From positions 62,001-126,000 of the forward strand of contig JACPYM010000057.1 of the NCBI GenBank assembly GCA_016196035.1: DNA of 64,000 nt. Reading direction: 5' to 3'. Within the stretch, counting starts at the first letter, position 1. Every line of letters starts with the position of its first letter. Below, one piece after another: positions 17,510 to 59,702 of the stretch. Made by a program: the position numbers and the translations under genes. Source of the stretch: Acidobacteriota bacterium (GTDB lineage: Bacteria > Acidobacteriota > Blastocatellia > RBC074). The notes beneath the pieces were generated by a model. It made no database searches. It worked only from the letters and a program-made list of their open reading frames with translations, and had not been told where the DNA came from.

Positions 17510-17599
17510 GTCTAACGCCGCGCATCAGCGGGCGCGCACCGAATCTCAGGTTCAACGGCCAAGTTATCTTGCGCGCTCCGTTGCATGCGTTTGTTAGGC
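17510..17599 (-). other. attC-like recombination site (integron cassette)
   Basis: Read on the minus strand, this 90-bp site starts with R'' GCCTAAC (fits RYYYAAC) and ends with R' GTTAGAC (fits GTTRRRY). The outer arms pair well: AAACGCATGCAACGGAGCGCGC with its partner GCGCGCCCGCTGATGCGCGGC. One unpaired A in the 5' arm (CGG-A-GCGCGC against CGG-GCGCGC) is the extrahelical base that integrases use to choose the strand. R'' contains the TAA stop codon of the VOC gene, a normal arrangement for compact cassettes. No integrase gene is in the window. Confidence 0.72.
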
Positions 17600-32725: not shown

Positions 32726-32903
32726 ATCGTTGCCTGTGTGGGTGAGGTGAAAGGAGCACTGGGACGGTACCGCGCGCGTCAGCAAGCGGAGCCTCCGTAG
32801 TTGAGCCAGTGCGTCTGACTTGAGGCATCGCTTGCTGACGCGCGCGGTACCGTCCCGCTACGCGGCTTTTTCGTACAGCGAAGTGAAAGCCGGCTTTCAC
32901 CTC
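32723..32903. repeat. Palindromic element, copy B (opposite orientation)
   Basis: A perfect 28-bp inverted repeat (32761-32788 and 32829-32856, starting GGGACGGTACCGCGCGCGTC) lies within an element related to copy A. Read on the other strand, the flank CACTTCGCTGTACGAAAAAGC matches the copy A flank CACTACGATGTACGGGAAAACC. The left end is TAGATCG and the TAG is the stop of the sigma-54 activator. The right end is decayed. Confidence 0.8.
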
Positions 32904-47704: not shown

Positions 47705-48730
47705 GCGAATTCCTTCTCCTCTTAGTAAAAGAGCGCGGCTGCGACACCGCGCTCGTCTATGCATCGTTTGTGCTTTCACCCGCGACTCACACGCCGTAAA
47801 TCATCCGCGCCAGCGTCTTTATTCCCCGCTCCGCTGAATCAATTTCATCACAGCCCAGCAAGCCAATCTTCCTAGTTCATAAGCCGCCAGAAAATGAAAC
47901 CACCGAAGCAACGAAGCGCACGAAGCGCGGAGCAGGAAGGAGAAGACAGCAAGGATCACGCTTTTTGGCTTCCTTACTTATATGTTTTGTTCGCCATAAA
48001 AGTGTTGTTCGCCATAAATCCTTTGCGGGTTGTCCGCCACATTTTCGCCGCGTCAGCGGCGGCTGACTTTAGCCGTGGGCGCAACCCACGGAGAACGCCG
48101 TTGAGATTTCCGCGTCGCGTCAGCGACGCCTGAATTCAAGCGTCGCTGACGCGACGCGGAAACTATCGCTATCCTTCCCGGCGTTGAAAACGCCGGGCTA
48201 AAGTCAGCCGCCGCTCACGCGGCGCAGAGGTAGCAATGAACTCTTAACGAATTTACGGCGGGCAGTATTTTGCCCCCTTCGTTGCTTCGTGCTGAACTTT
48301 CTTTGTTTTGCAAGCGATCAGATCGTTATGCGCAGCATTCAGATGACCCCAGACCAAGCACAAGCGGCATTGAACACTGTTTAAGTCGCTCCCCATAATG
48401 TCCAGGCCAGTCCATCTCTCGCTCAGCTCGCTCCGTACCGTGTATTGGCTGCGGCGCGCACGGTTCAAGATGTTCCATACCGTGCGCAACACGCCTTCAA
48501 CTCTCCTCCAGACGCTTCGTACCGGCAAAAATCCGCTTGTTTTCTGCCACCGGTCGAGTAAAATCCGCTCCGTTATCAGCATACAAGCCCCAAGTTCTCT
48601 GTGACAGCAGTTTATCCAGCGCGTAAGTGACGCAAACTCAGTCCCGACTTCAACCGCCGCGTTGCCTGCGCCTGTGAGATTCGTTTTCGGCCACCCATCA
48701 ATCAACCATATTCAGCAAAGGAGCAATAAC
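47705..48730. other. Gene-free interval rich in palindromes
   Basis: The interval holds a composite palindrome (48047-48223, separate entry). It is bracketed by a 13-bp inverted repeat CGAAGCAACGAAG at about 47903 and its complement near 48279. Small frames between 48250 and 48705 show no recognisable protein. I see no tRNA or other known RNA. Confidence 0.55.
48047..48223. repeat. Composite cruciform-forming palindrome
   Basis: The outer arms 48047-48074 and 48196-48223 (GCCGCGTCAGCGGCGGCTGA...) are inverted copies with one mismatch over 28 bp. The inner arms 48107-48129 and 48140-48162 (TTTCCGCGTCGCGTCAGCGA...) are perfect over 23 bp with loop CTGAATTCAA. Between them sit small side hairpins (GTGGGCGCAACCCAC and CCCGGCGTTGAAAACGCCGGG). 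The layout predicts a multi-arm structure in DNA or RNA. Confidence 0.85.
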
Positions 48731-49726: not shown

Positions 49727-49807
49727 GCCGCAGATCAACGCCGACCAACGCCGATTAATTCAATTGACGAACAGGTTTGATCTGCGTTTTCAGCGTTCAT
49801 CTGCGGC
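49727..49807. repeat. Imperfect palindrome before the HigB-like gene
   Basis: GCCGCAGATCAACGC (49727-49741) and the complement of 49793-49807 (GCCGCAGATGAACGC) are inverted copies with one mismatch. The centre contains TTGACG and further GATCTGCGTTTT. It overlaps the putative start region of the HigB-like gene and might be its operator, or a mobile repeat inserted at its 5' end. Confidence 0.6.
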
Positions 49808-50198
49808 AAGACCTCTCCTCTTTGAGCCATCACCCAAATGGTTTGCCAAATTTGCCCGCAATGAATGGATAAGCGATGCAAAACTGCGCAAGGTCGTGAA
49901 AGAAGCCGAGCAAGGAAATATTGACGCCGACTATGGCGGCGGTGTCATCAAACAGAGGATTGCCCGGCCCCACCAGGGAAAATCCGGCGGCTATCGGTCA
50001 ATCATCTATTATCGCCAGGCAGACAAGGCTTTTTTCGTCTATGGCTGGTCGAAAAGCGCGCGGGAGAACATTGACGAAGACGAGGAAAAAGAGTTCAAAA
50101 GACAGGCGAAAATCACATTCGCCTTGAACGACGAACAGATTTTGAAACTGCTTGAAAACGGAACCTGGCAGGAGGTGAATTACCATGAAGAAAGCTAA
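49764..50198 (+). CDS. HigB/RelE-like toxin (PF06296-type)
   Basis: This frame (144 codons, TTG start at 49764) contains the toxin domain from about residue 22: 'EPSPKWFAKFARNEWISDAKLRKVVKEAEQGNIDADYGGGVIKQRIARPHQGKSGGYRSIIYYRQADKAFFVYGWSKSARENIDEDEEKEF'. The 'GGVIKQRIARPHQGKSGGYRSI' segment is diagnostic for this RelE subgroup. No ATG/GTG occurs between 49764 and the domain and no SD precedes the TTG, so the start is uncertain. The antitoxin ATG overlaps its end by 14 bp. Confidence 0.85.
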   Translation: MTNRFDLRFQRSSAARPLLFEPSPKWFAKFARNEWISDAKLRKVVKEAEQGNIDADYGGGVIKQRIARPHQGKSGGYRSIIYYRQADKAFFVYGWSKSARENIDEDEEKEFKRQAKITFALNDEQILKLLENGTWQEVNYHEES

Positions 50199-50508
50199 GA
50201 CATACAAAAGTGAGGCCTTCGCGGCGATCCATGAAACGGCTGTCGGCATGTACGATGCTGGCGTCATAGATAAGCAGACGATGCGGAGTTTCGACCATAC
50301 TTGCTTGACACCCATCCATGAGTTCACCGCCGAACAAATCCGCGCGTTGCGCGAACGCGAAGAAGTGAGCCAGTCGGTTTTTGCGCGCTATCTGAACGTG
50401 ACGAAGGATTACGTCAGCAAGTGGGAGCGCGGCGAAAAGAAGCTCGCCGGCCCTTCCTTGAAGTTACTGTCACTGATCGAAAAACACGGCCTGGCAGCCA
50501 TTGCGTAA
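50185..50508 (+). CDS. HTH-type antitoxin (HigA/NadS-like)
   Basis: This 107-residue protein has an XRE-like helix-turn-helix near the C terminus ('FTAEQIRALREREEVSQSVFARYLNVTKDYVSKWERGEKKLAGPSLKLLSLIEKHG'). The N-terminal arm (KTYKSEAFAAIHETAVGMYDAGVI) would contact the toxin. SD GGAGG is 9 bp upstream. The reversed toxin-first order fits HigBA. It probably represses its own operon. Confidence 0.9.
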   Translation: MKKAKTYKSEAFAAIHETAVGMYDAGVIDKQTMRSFDHTCLTPIHEFTAEQIRALREREEVSQSVFARYLNVTKDYVSKWERGEKKLAGPSLKLLSLIEKHGLAAIA

Positions 50509-50680: not shown

Positions 50681-51361
50681 TGCACAGGCCCAGGTAAAGT
50701 CACGCTGTTTTTTGGACGATTTGGTTAATGTGAGTTTGCTTTGTGGGAGCGAATGACAAGGATTAAGAAACGACGTAAGAAGAGAGCCGTGGTGAGGGCA
50801 TCAACGCCATAAACGGCCTTATCAGCCGCGAAATTTACTGTGTATAGTTGACGTAGTTTGATTGGCATTGGCATTCTTATTCGCATTAAGATTAGCGTTC
50901 ACTCGCGCCCGCTATTGTACTTTGCCAAGGGCGTAGTCTTCGGTTTCCCAGCAGCAACGGGCGCATTTCGTAATCGTCACAGCACAATAGGAGTCCAGAA
51001 TCTTTACTGCCGGTCACGCTGGAAAAGGTTTTACTGGTCAATAGAGTAATTCTGACCAATAGGCGATGTCCGCATGTTCACAAATTTATTCGACAACATT
51101 GCTATCAAGGTTCAATGACACACAAGGTTCGGGAAACAAAAGTTTCTGATAACGCCAGCTTCTTGGTTTCTGGTACCAGAAACTGTTTCTGATAGCTCAA
51201 ACAAGTTTGTGTTATCAGAAACCTCGCGTAGCAACCTAATTACATGTTAGGCGCTGAGGAACGCGATAGAACCGAAAGGCCGAGTAGTTACGCGTGAAGG
51301 TGATATATCAAGACATGCAGCTCATCTATGTTCGTGTAGCGGAAAGGATGGTGAAATAATA
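50681..51361. other. Gene-free interval with iterated GTTTCTG repeats and inverted repeat
   Basis: No coding gene is supported. A 12-bp perfect inverted repeat GTTTCTGATAAC (51142-51153) pairs with 51211-51222. An 18-bp perfect palindrome GTTTCTGGTACCAGAAAC lies at 51166-51183, and a third direct GTTTCTGATA at 51185. A GTTAGGC core site lies at 51246-51252 before the SUMF1-like gene. At 51033-51057 is a 25-bp sequence whose inverted copy is at 53219-53243. Confidence 0.6.
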
Positions 51362-52237
51362 ATGCAATCAATGAACGTTAAAAATGCCGTTTGTGGAGTG
51401 ATGTTGGCCTTACTAGCTAGCGTAATAGCGTTGCCAATGGTCAAGAGGCAGACTGACGGCAGAGACATTATTCCGGGAAGTCAAAAGCCTTCACCTGCGC
51501 CTACACCAAACCCAAAATCTGCTGCTGATACAATCGAGTTTGTACGGATTCCAGCGGGCGAGTTCATGATGGGTTCAGATAATAGGGATGTAAACGGTCA
51601 AATTCCCGCTTTATATGAGCTGTTGCATGAGAGCCCAGTGCATCTAGTACGGATCAGCCGCAGCTTTGAGCTGGGGAAGTATGAGGTGACACAGTCCCAG
51701 TGGGAAGCAGTGATGGGGAACAATCCGAGCCATTTCAAAGGCGCGAACTTGCCGGTAGAGAACGTGTCATGGGAGGATGTGGAGCAGTTTATTCAGAAAA
51801 TGAATAAGCGGAATGATGGATACACCTATCGGCTGCCAACGGAATCGGAATGGGAGTATGCCGCACGCGCCGGATCGAAAGGAAAGTACAGCTTCGGTGA
51901 TGATGAAACTCGGCTCAGCGAGTACGCTTGGTATGGTGAAACCCTAGTCGGCAAGACTCATCCCGTCGGGCAGAAGAAACCGAATGACTGGGGCTTGTAC
52001 GATATGTACGGGAATGTGTGGGAGTGGGTGCAAGATTGGATGGACTGGTATTCAGCCTATCCGACGGGGCCAGTGACTGATCCGTCGGGACCGCCAGGGC
52101 CGATTTATTACAAGATGCAACGTGGTGGCAGTTGGGGTGCCCCGGCTCAGTATTGTCGATCAGCGTCACGCCACGCCGTCCGGCCCGAAAACCGTGGCAA
52201 TGTTATTGGTTTTCGCCTCGCGAGGACGACAAAGTAG
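51362..52237 (+). CDS. Formylglycine-generating-enzyme (SUMF1)-like protein, probable cassette gene
   Basis: This 291-residue protein has an N-terminal hydrophobic leader (CGVMLALLASVIALPM) and then a SUMF1/FGE-sulfatase domain: 'FVRIPAGEFMMGSDNRD', 'HLVRISRSFELGKYEVTQSQWEAVMGNNPSHFKGANLPVENVSWEDVEQFIQKMN', 'YRLPTESEWEYAARAGS', 'GLYDMYGNVWEWVQDWMDWY' and 'RGGSWGAPAQYCRSASRHAVRPENRGNVIGFRLAR'. Only one Cys is present near the C-terminal site, so the copper-binding Cys pair of true FGE is incomplete. It is more likely a non-enzymatic or divergent member. A GTTAGGC core lies 110 bp upstream and an attC-like site 80 bp downstream. Confidence 0.9.
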   Translation: MQSMNVKNAVCGVMLALLASVIALPMVKRQTDGRDIIPGSQKPSPAPTPNPKSAADTIEFVRIPAGEFMMGSDNRDVNGQIPALYELLHESPVHLVRISRSFELGKYEVTQSQWEAVMGNNPSHFKGANLPVENVSWEDVEQFIQKMNKRNDGYTYRLPTESEWEYAARAGSKGKYSFGDDETRLSEYAWYGETLVGKTHPVGQKKPNDWGLYDMYGNVWEWVQDWMDWYSAYPTGPVTDPSGPPGPIYYKMQRGGSWGAPAQYCRSASRHAVRPENRGNVIGFRLARTTK

Positions 52238-52316
52238 GGCTTTGCGCTTCTCTCTCCCGAACTTGGCAACTAAGTCGTTTGGGCGATCAGCATAGATGTC
52301 TTATGGCGGAAACTGC

Positions 52317-52407
52317 GCCTAACACCCGATGCACCGGAGGCCGGCCAACGGGGGCTTCGACAATCACCAACATCTCAGGCCGTCCCCGGTGATCGTGGCC
52401 GTTCGGC
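52317..52407 (+). other. attC-like recombination site
   Basis: The site starts with R'' GCCTAAC and ends with GTTCGGC (one deviation from GTTRRRY). The arms ACCCGATGCACCGGAGGCCGG and the complement of GGCCGTCCCCGGTGATCGTGG pair imperfectly with bulges, length 91 bp. It lies after the SUMF1-like gene and before the next gene. Confidence 0.62.
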
Positions 52408-52470
52408 ATAAACTTTGATTACTCAAGAGGTGAACATTCATGATTACCAACTACAAAGGAGAGACTTACA

Positions 52471-53106
52471 TTGAGAAATTTCAAGCAGAGTAACCTATCG
52501 CTTCTCCCCCTGCTCGTCAGCGCACTTTGCATGTTGTATGGCGTGCAATCCTTCGCGCAGAAGACTCCGACACTGAAGTCTAAAGAGTTGGCAGTACTAA
52601 CCGGTACTTTTACGGGAGAATGGGCCATGTATGGCGTTGATGAACGTGGACAGGTGATCAGGCGGATGGCCTGGACTGATACGATCAAGGCTGAGAATCT
52701 GATGGTGCAGGAAGAGCGTGCCTATGTTTCAACCACAGATGAGATGATTTTTGAAGGGGGCAAAGTACCGCCAATGAAAGTTCAGGGAACAGAAGGGTAT
52801 TTCCTGAACAAAGACGGAAGCCTGGGAGACTATTTCATCGAATCCATGGGGCAAACCTACCGTGTACGCAAAATCGAGGAGAAGGTCTGGACCTATACCA
52901 TGAACGCTTCCCCACAGGAACTTGCGCGGCTGGGATTTATTGAGGTGATTTCCGCACGCCACGTTATTGTCAAGATTGTTACGCAGGAAGACGGCAAGGA
53001 GACGCATAGAATTTCAAGGCTGACAACAGTTAATTGGAAAGATAAAGAAGGGAAAACGAGGTGGTTACAGTATATTAGTCTGCAAGGCTTTCATCAGCGA
53101 CAGTAA
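52471..53106 (+). CDS. Secreted protein of unknown function, probable cassette gene
   Basis: This starts at TTG 52471 with a strong SD (AAAGGAGAG 7 bp upstream). The 211-residue protein has a signal peptide (LSLLPLLVSALCMLYGVQSFAQ) and then a beta-rich lipocalin-like body ('LAVLTGTFTGEWAMYGVDERGQVIRRMAWTDTIKAENLMVQEERAYVSTTDEMIFEGG' and 'ISARHVIVKIVTQEDGKETHRISRLTTVNW'). No named family is recognised. It is bounded on both sides by attC-like sites (52407 and 53124), the structure of one complete cassette. The GC content is lower than in the rest of the window. Confidence 0.8.
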   Translation: MRNFKQSNLSLLPLLVSALCMLYGVQSFAQKTPTLKSKELAVLTGTFTGEWAMYGVDERGQVIRRMAWTDTIKAENLMVQEERAYVSTTDEMIFEGGKVPPMKVQGTEGYFLNKDGSLGDYFIESMGQTYRVRKIEEKVWTYTMNASPQELARLGFIEVISARHVIVKIVTQEDGKETHRISRLTTVNWKDKEGKTRWLQYISLQGFHQRQ

Positions 53107-53123
53107 GCGCCTATCAAAGACCT

Positions 53124-53213
53124 GCCGAACAACCCGTGCACCGGAGCGTGGCCAACGGCGGTTGTGGTTACTTCCAACGTCACAGGCCACGCCCGGTGAA
53201 CGGGTTGTTAGGT
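53124..53213 (+). other. attC-like recombination site (best example)
   Basis: The 5' arm GCCGAACAACCCGTGCACCGG-A-GCGTGGCC pairs with the complement of the 3' arm, ACCTAACAACCCGTTCACCGGGCGTGGCC. They match almost base for base except an extra A and a G/T position. The extra A is the extrahelical base expected in attC. The 3' core GTTAGGT fits GTTRRRY. The site starts 18 bp after the stop of the gene at 52471. Length 90 bp. Confidence 0.78.
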
Positions 53214-53218
53214 GAACC

Positions 53219-53243
53219 GGTCAGAATCCCTCTATTGACCAGT
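53219..53243. repeat. Inverted copy of the 51033-51057 sequence
   Basis: Read on the minus strand this is ACTGGTCAATAGAGGGATTC..., matching ACTGGTCAATAGAGTAATTC... at 51033 in 23 of 25 positions. Each copy also has internal GGTCA...TGACC symmetry. The two copies bracket the two cassette genes, and the right one starts 6 bp beyond the attC-like site. Confidence 0.65.
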
Positions 53244-54477: not shown

Positions 54478-54664
54478 TAGGCCTCCTTTTTTTGGCGTCG
54501 GTCGGTGGAGTTGCTTTGAACTCACAAGCAAAGGAATCGAAGGTTGCGGAATCAGGACAACCGCGCGGTTACTCTAGGTCTCACAATCGCCGCTGTCAAT
54601 TTTTCTCGGAAAGTGTTGGGCGATGCGCCAGCGCCCAACACTGGGGGCCAAAGACGGCGGTCAA

Positions 54665-54758
54665 CGTAGGGGCAGACCTGTGTGTCTGCCCCGGTCGCGT
54701 CAGACGAAAGCGAAGATGGCAAGTGCCACCGGGGCAGACACACAGGTCTGCCCCTACG
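54665..54758. repeat. Perfect 31-bp palindrome CGTAGGGGCAGACCTG type
   Basis: Arms 54665-54695 and 54728-54758 are perfect inverted copies over 31 bp (CGTAGGGGCAGACCTGTGTG...). Each arm itself begins with GGGGCAGAC and has GTCTGCCCC inside, so arms can fold on their own. The 32-bp spacer is not symmetric. A decayed relative is at 9162. Confidence 0.85.
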
Positions 54759-54788
54759 CCATTTTCTTGCCTTAATCACATTGAGCGC

Positions 54789-59200: not shown

Positions 59201-59689
59201 CCCTGAAAGGGGCAATTTCAATAGCCGTGGGCAATCCCCTTGTCATTGCCCAGGTCTTTGCGCGAAACGTGCGAGCCGGATTCAGCCCGCGGACGCGGGC
59301 GGCGGCGTAAAGCCCAGGGTGGAGCGCTGCAGCGCGGAACCCTGGGAACATTGGCGAGTGCGCCCAGCCCGCGCAGGCGGGCGACAGACCGTGAGCAGCG
59401 CGCAGGTCTGCCGCCCACTCCGTGGGCTCTGTGGCTTCACGTGACGCCAGCCTGGGGTTCCGGCTGCGCCTGCACCCCAGGCTTTATGCTGCCGCCCGCA
59501 TTCGCGGGCTGAATTCGTGCAAAGACCTGGGCAATGACAAGGCAATGCCCACGGGAGGACGGAATAACAAACTGCAACTCTGATTGGGTTGGATTGGGAT
59601 GATGAATGCGACCCCTTCAGGGTCGGGCGTAATTTCGGTGCGGCTTCCGGTGGCGCTGCCACCGGCTATTGAATGTCGCCCTTTCAGGG
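59201..59689. repeat. Nested palindromic repeats in a gene-free interval
   Basis: The outer arms CCCTGAAAGGGGCAATTTCA... (59201-59227) pair with 59663-59689. Inside them lies an independent palindrome at 59229-59550 with perfect 23-bp arms (59239-59261, CTTGTCATTGCCCAGGTCTT, and 59519-59541). Further inner arms contain GCCCGCG...GCGGGC hairpins. This looks like one palindromic element inserted beside or within another. No gene is found in 59079-59702. Confidence 0.8.
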
Positions 59690-59702
59690 CTGGCGCAGGT
59701 CT

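Follow-up and report, generated by a model that had tools for sequence, protein, structure and literature searches.

A cluster of attC sites lacking an integrase (CALIN) is defined by two or more attC sites with no neighbouring intI (PMC9024848). The locus examined here, positions 51033-53243 of a 64,000-nucleotide stretch of an Acidobacteriota genome (the window), resembles CALIN as called by IntegronFinder in that it has at least two cassette-borne attC sites and lacks a nearby intI. It differs in that an attI site and a repeat array precede the cassettes, whereas CALIN are judged by attC alone. Sedentary chromosomal integrons share with this genome the G↓TTRRRY crossover, the tandem attC cassettes and a single IntI per genome, but the window locus is without intI, several platforms are dispersed in the genome and four phased palindromes are present. 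As in attI1 of class 1 integrons, repeats adjoin the crossover core. In attI1 these are two direct repeats bound by IntI1 (PMC8946536), whereas the window has four imperfect palindromes whose occurrence follows a small gene, here called gene X. Delta-attI-type gene cassettes (PMC12901181) also carry attI sequence away from intI; in them attC at the 3' end gives way to a partial attI, while in the window attI lies 5' of the array and has full repeats. Integron mobilisation units and MITE-flanked integrons are similar in that inverted repeats bracket an integron fragment, but no target-site duplication, second copy or related transposase was found here.

The cassette array at this locus is itself of a known kind; what is new is how the attI is built and the small gene that goes with it. 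Little has been described of attI sites outside class 1 integrons (PMC9024848), and attI x attC insertion by the Vibrio integrase reportedly depends on a host factor that is unknown (PMC8946536).

Two attC sites and their gene cassettes

The original prediction described two genes in this region, each followed by an attC-like site. To assess these sites we used two attC covariance models: R1, built from seven attC sites including the two window sites, and R2, built from 16 attC sites of other loci with the window sites excluded. Both models recovered forward-strand sites at 52317-52407 (R'' GCCTAAC, R' GTTCGGC) and 53124-53213 (R'' GCCGAAC, R' GTTAGGT), exactly where they had been predicted. 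With R1 the sites ranked first and second in the 64 kb (77.3 and 72.5 bits, respectively), and with R2 they again took the two top ranks in the window (E-values of 1.5e-8 and 1.4e-8). The two sites are 716 bp apart. Each has R'', L'', L' and R', a stem fold and a conserved extrahelical base. This base, predicted as a single extra A in an arm of the second site, was found there at 53145 and also at 52338 in the first, in both cases on the L'' arm, and it is invariant in both attC alignments. When bottom strands were folded as single-stranded DNA and compared with shuffles, the second site was well supported (z = -6.1), whereas the first showed a modest deviation (z = -1.8). No Rfam family matched at the array positions.

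Gene cassette 1 (51247-52401, forward strand) runs from TTAGGC to the G of R', and the leading GTTAGGC is complemented exactly by its R'', GCCTAAC. Its 291-aa open reading frame (51362-52237, forward) contains a SUMF1/FGE-sulfatase domain (PF03781, E 4e-48). No SUMF1-like integron cassettes turned up in the literature searched, which says little about how unfamiliar such cargo is. Gene cassette 2 (52402-53207, forward strand) likewise has an R'', GCCGAAC, that exactly complements its leading GTTCGGC. Its open reading frame (52471-53106, forward; 211 aa) matched no family above cut-off, and a search of 385 other Acidobacteriota genomes gave no relative of the protein. Cassette genes are commonly without relatives. 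The two reading frames point in the same direction, as predicted. The lower GC content was also borne out: 0.500 for 51033-53243 compared with 0.566 for the window, the 15th lowest of 309 intervals of the same size. None of the sampled relatives is closer to the host than the same family.

The R'' of an attC should complement the GTTRRRY at the 5' end of the same cassette, because both ends meet in the circular cassette. This cassette rule was exact in 20 of 26 cassettes from eight arrays of the host and related genomes, including both cassettes of the window, all four on contig C40 and all four on contig C63. As a control, the attC's own R' matched in 3 of 26, and 100,000 shuffles gave a mean of 5.2 and a maximum of 13. 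Judged by these sequence features, the two units are genuine integron gene cassettes, and their excision as circles by IntI is predicted.

An attI platform in a genome with one integron integrase

A search of the window's own genome showed that 51139-51255 matches C63:33756-33873 and C95:23756-23840, each at 86%. When aligned, the three sequences run together up to ...AACCTAATTACATGTTAG and diverge just after (GTTAG). Because homology with C63 and C95 ends there, we assign the GTTAGGC at 51246-51252, a core already predicted to lie before cassette 1, to the attI crossover. The attI core (51223-51252, forward strand) reads ...AACCTAATTACATG followed by TTAGGC, with the crossover between G51246 and T51247. 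Sequence common to different platforms ends at G↓TTRRRY not only in the window, C63 and C95 but also in two loci of a related genome, L058 and L059. In most other loci the crossover GTT lies ~40-43 bp after the start of the fourth of the palindromic repeats described below. A scan of 50950-51380 revealed no promoter-like sites. Look-alikes of the attI core on C97 and C31 were attributed to chance; they lie inside apparently ordinary coding genes and have no repeat array.

The genome was also searched for intI, using an integron-integrase family cut-off of 265 bits. The window's contig had no intI over the cut-off. The only one in the genome is on C40 (459.6 bits), beside an array of four attC sites. 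Tyrosine recombinases on C30 and C60 were considered as second integrases and rejected, their best stretches scoring 75 and 61 bits, far below 265. No intI adjoins attI at 51246, so that this locus is not a complete integron; C40 is. Further attC sites were found on C63, where attI leads into an array with four attC, and on C9, C95 and C115, with a lone site in the window at 17510-17599. The genome therefore holds one intact integron, on C40, and several integrase-less arrays. In a partial literature sample we found no papers joining attC with Blastocatellia.

The original prediction had interpreted the locus as a CALIN. At least two attC sites and the absence of a local intI agree with that reading, which nevertheless falls short on two counts: the 5' core is an attI crossover with a repeat array, so that more than attC sites is present, and the search for intI elsewhere found a complete integron whose IntI could act on the cluster. 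Given the attC structure, the cassette rule, the homology ending at the crossover and the intact integron elsewhere, it is very probable that 51142-53213 comprises an attI acceptor site (crossover 51246/51247) and two genuine cassettes, without an integrase gene of its own.

Two of the other attC loci can be described briefly. The lone attC at 17510-17599 lies on the minus strand and scores 42.5 bits with R1 (E 1.1e-5 with R2, which excludes the window sites). It directly follows a gene reading like a glyoxalase/VOC protein and is probably a single cassette left stranded. In the C95 locus (L018, C95:21514-23840) an attI-like site is followed by a ~2.2-kb cassette that carries a DNA methyltransferase-like gene plus one more open reading frame, and then by an attC with an R'' other than the complement expected. 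A restriction-modification cassette is one possibility.

Four palindromes of a kind that typically follows gene X

Upstream of the crossover, an array scan identified four imperfect palindromes of ~18 bp at 51142-51222, with a score of 86; the next best tile of the window scored 65. Repeat 1 (GTTTCTGATAACGCCAGC) lies at 51142-51159, repeat 2 (GTTTCTGGTACCAGAAAC) at 51166-51183, 24 bp after repeat 1, and repeat 3 (GTTTCTGATAGCTCAAAC) at 51185-51202, 19 bp after repeat 2, all on the forward strand. Repeat 4 is inverted (51205-51222, minus strand; forward-strand sequence GTTTGTGTTATCAGAAAC) and follows repeat 3 by 20 bp. Elsewhere the same arrangement of four ~18-bp imperfect palindromes typically occurs 3' of gene X, with spacings of 24-25, 20 and 20 bp. 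The last spacing steps correspond to about two helical turns.

Gene X is the small gene preceding attI on C40 (124 aa) and C63 (121 aa). These copies matched nothing in Pfam, NCBIfam or PHROGs over the curated cut-off. DUF5710 matched gene X weakly in 17 of 34 relatives, with a best E of 1.6e-5 that falls short of the curated cut-off, and a partial literature sample contained no papers joining integrons with DUF5710. A structure model of the protein (pLDDT 88, pTM 0.56) gave no Foldseek match under 0.001 and a best Z of 3.6. Sequence and fold searches of the PDB produced nothing usable, and no matches were found in plasmids or phages. A scan of species genomes identified 63 gene X loci in Acidobacteria, Chloroflexi, KSB1, Geobacter relatives, Nitrospirae and others. 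Within Acidobacteriota, all 12 genomes with gene X carry intI (E <= 1e-60), compared with 120 of 392 sampled genomes, and in 8 of those 12 the two genes are side by side. All nine recombinases tested as neighbours of gene X exceeded the integron-integrase cut-off. Many other gene X loci had no intI within the locus DNA examined.

Using a spacing that was picked after looking at examples, we found arrays above the 99.5% shuffle level at 39 of 62 gene X loci, compared with 1.3% of 1,541 further segments taken from these loci; the remaining 23 gene X loci were below this threshold. Repeat type varied with gene X. The window repeats are of the C63 type (distance 0.07) and distant from those of C40 (0.43). 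Between C63 and C40, gene X is 53% identical and the repeats are unrelated (distance 0.44), whereas between C63 and L057, a locus of a related genome, gene X is 73% identical and the repeats are the same (distance 0.08). Within one genome, two gene X types pair with two repeat types. In a Mantel test of 17 loci, uncorrected for phylogeny, the repeats diverged along with gene X (r 0.54, p 5e-5).

The palindromes could instead be binding sites for IntI, with gene X a mere neighbour. There is precedent in attI1, whose direct repeats provide two additional sites for IntI1 binding and favour attI1 x attC recombination (PMC8946536). We consider this explanation unlikely in the present case: 25 intI loci without gene X had no clear array, while gene X loci without detected intI do have one, and repeat type goes with gene X and not with the single IntI of the genome. 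The latter pattern favours gene X over IntI as the reader of the palindromes, and the gene X protein probably binds them. Its most likely function would be either to help attI recombination or to control cassette expression. The recombination role is slightly favoured by the fixed distance to the crossover and by the position of the array after, rather than before, gene X. Gene X and the palindromes together point to an unrecognised accessory part of integrons.

Probable action of integrase in trans, and possible decay or transposition of the unit

A metagenome-assembled genome, RBC074 (G275), from the same family as the host contains three gene X-attI platforms (L057, L058 and L059), one of them with intI. 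Two of these, L058 and L059, differ at two of 558 aligned bases and so share about 550 identical bases covering gene X and attI. One difference is at the left edge and the other in the cassette-derived part of the crossover site. One copy is beside intI and the other has none, and it is precisely at the crossover that their first cassettes begin to differ. If the assembly is right, repeats being a risk in a metagenome bin, a recent duplication was followed by cassette exchange, for which IntI must have acted in trans or the swap must have taken place at the other copy. The pattern suggests that IntI acts in trans.

For the window, circular cassettes would have recombined at G51246/T51247 through an integron integrase, a reaction seen here through its products. 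The source of IntI would most simply be C40 acting in trans, or else a local copy since lost. The palindromes would probably place the gene X protein next to the crossover, along a single face of the DNA, and the bound protein would aid the attI x attC reaction or control transcription into the cassettes. We favour insertion of the window cassettes by IntI in trans as the probable route. Against this, the repeat type of the C40 attI differs from that of the window, making use of the window site by the C40 IntI uncertain, and an IntI generally pairs with a matching attI (PMC8946536).

Three other explanations bear on different parts of this account. It is scarcely credible that chance or ordinary intergenic repeats beside normal chromosomal genes account for the attC-like sites: no supporting point was left after testing, and the idea is refuted by the recovery of both sites with the independent model R2, by the cassette rule and by an attI boundary common to several loci. 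A stronger challenge, directed at the role of IntI in trans and not at the identity of the sites, is plain decay, in which a complete integron lost intI and gene X by deletion and left attI with two immobile cassettes. C63 keeps gene X without intI and the window and C95 keep neither, which reads like a loss series. No remnant of intI or gene X was found near the window array, however, and the integrase-less copy that is identical over 550 bp to an intI-linked one indicates that such copies also arise by duplication. Decay is a realistic possibility, rated somewhat short of even.

The third explanation concerns how the platform moved. The unit is bracketed by a 25-bp inverted repeat with 23 of 25 positions matching, located at exactly the limits, 51033-53243, that the original prediction had given. 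The left arm (ACTGGTCAATAGAGTAATTCTGACC; 51033-51057, forward strand; 92% complementary to 53219-53243) ends 84 bp before the palindrome array, and the last attC is followed 6 bp later by the right arm (53219-53243, minus strand). The window has no other long-distance inverted repeat of such quality, and none appeared in eight shuffles. In an integron, sequence to the right of the last crossover originally followed attI. By these mechanics, the unit without its cassettes would measure ~250 bp and have attI between inverted ends, similar to a MITE. The locus could accordingly be read as a non-autonomous transposable element of roughly 250 bp (51033-51246 plus 53208-53243) that carried attI and received cassettes later, platform and cassettes being mobile together like an integron mobilisation unit. 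The terminal repeat, close around attC and array and unique in the window, speaks for this reading. Arguing against it, no clear target-site duplication is present (outer flanks GGTTTT and TCGCCG), the repeat pair occurs once in the genome and is absent from 385 other Acidobacteriota genomes, and no comparable bracket was found at the other attI platforms tested. We regard a transposable origin as rather improbable.

Returning to an integrase that acts in trans, the broader proposal is that gene X protein on four helically phased palindromes forms a dedicated attI accessory factor, an unnamed and widespread integron component. The gene X-attI module would spread within genomes without intI, and one IntI would serve several platforms in trans, the window being one of them, possibly between transposon-like ends. 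We advance this composite proposal tentatively, with the chances of its being correct close to, though below, even. The attI architecture and its cognate small gene, present in several phyla, are a candidate in these bacteria for the type of host factor reported for Vibrio. The architecture and gene also offer a sequence signature usable for finding attI. Finally, the view of integrase-less arrays as mere debris is called into question, as one integrase may feed several platforms per genome.

Other features of the window

Short-distance, hairpin-like inverted repeats of at least 25 bp were present at 32758-32859, 48044-48226, 54663-54760 and 59234-59546. Just upstream of the array, at 49764-50508, is a pair of genes for a RelE-type toxin and an HTH antitoxin, without flanking attC. 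An Acido-Lenti-1 RNA (Rfam RF01687) was detected above the gathering score at 59647-59691.
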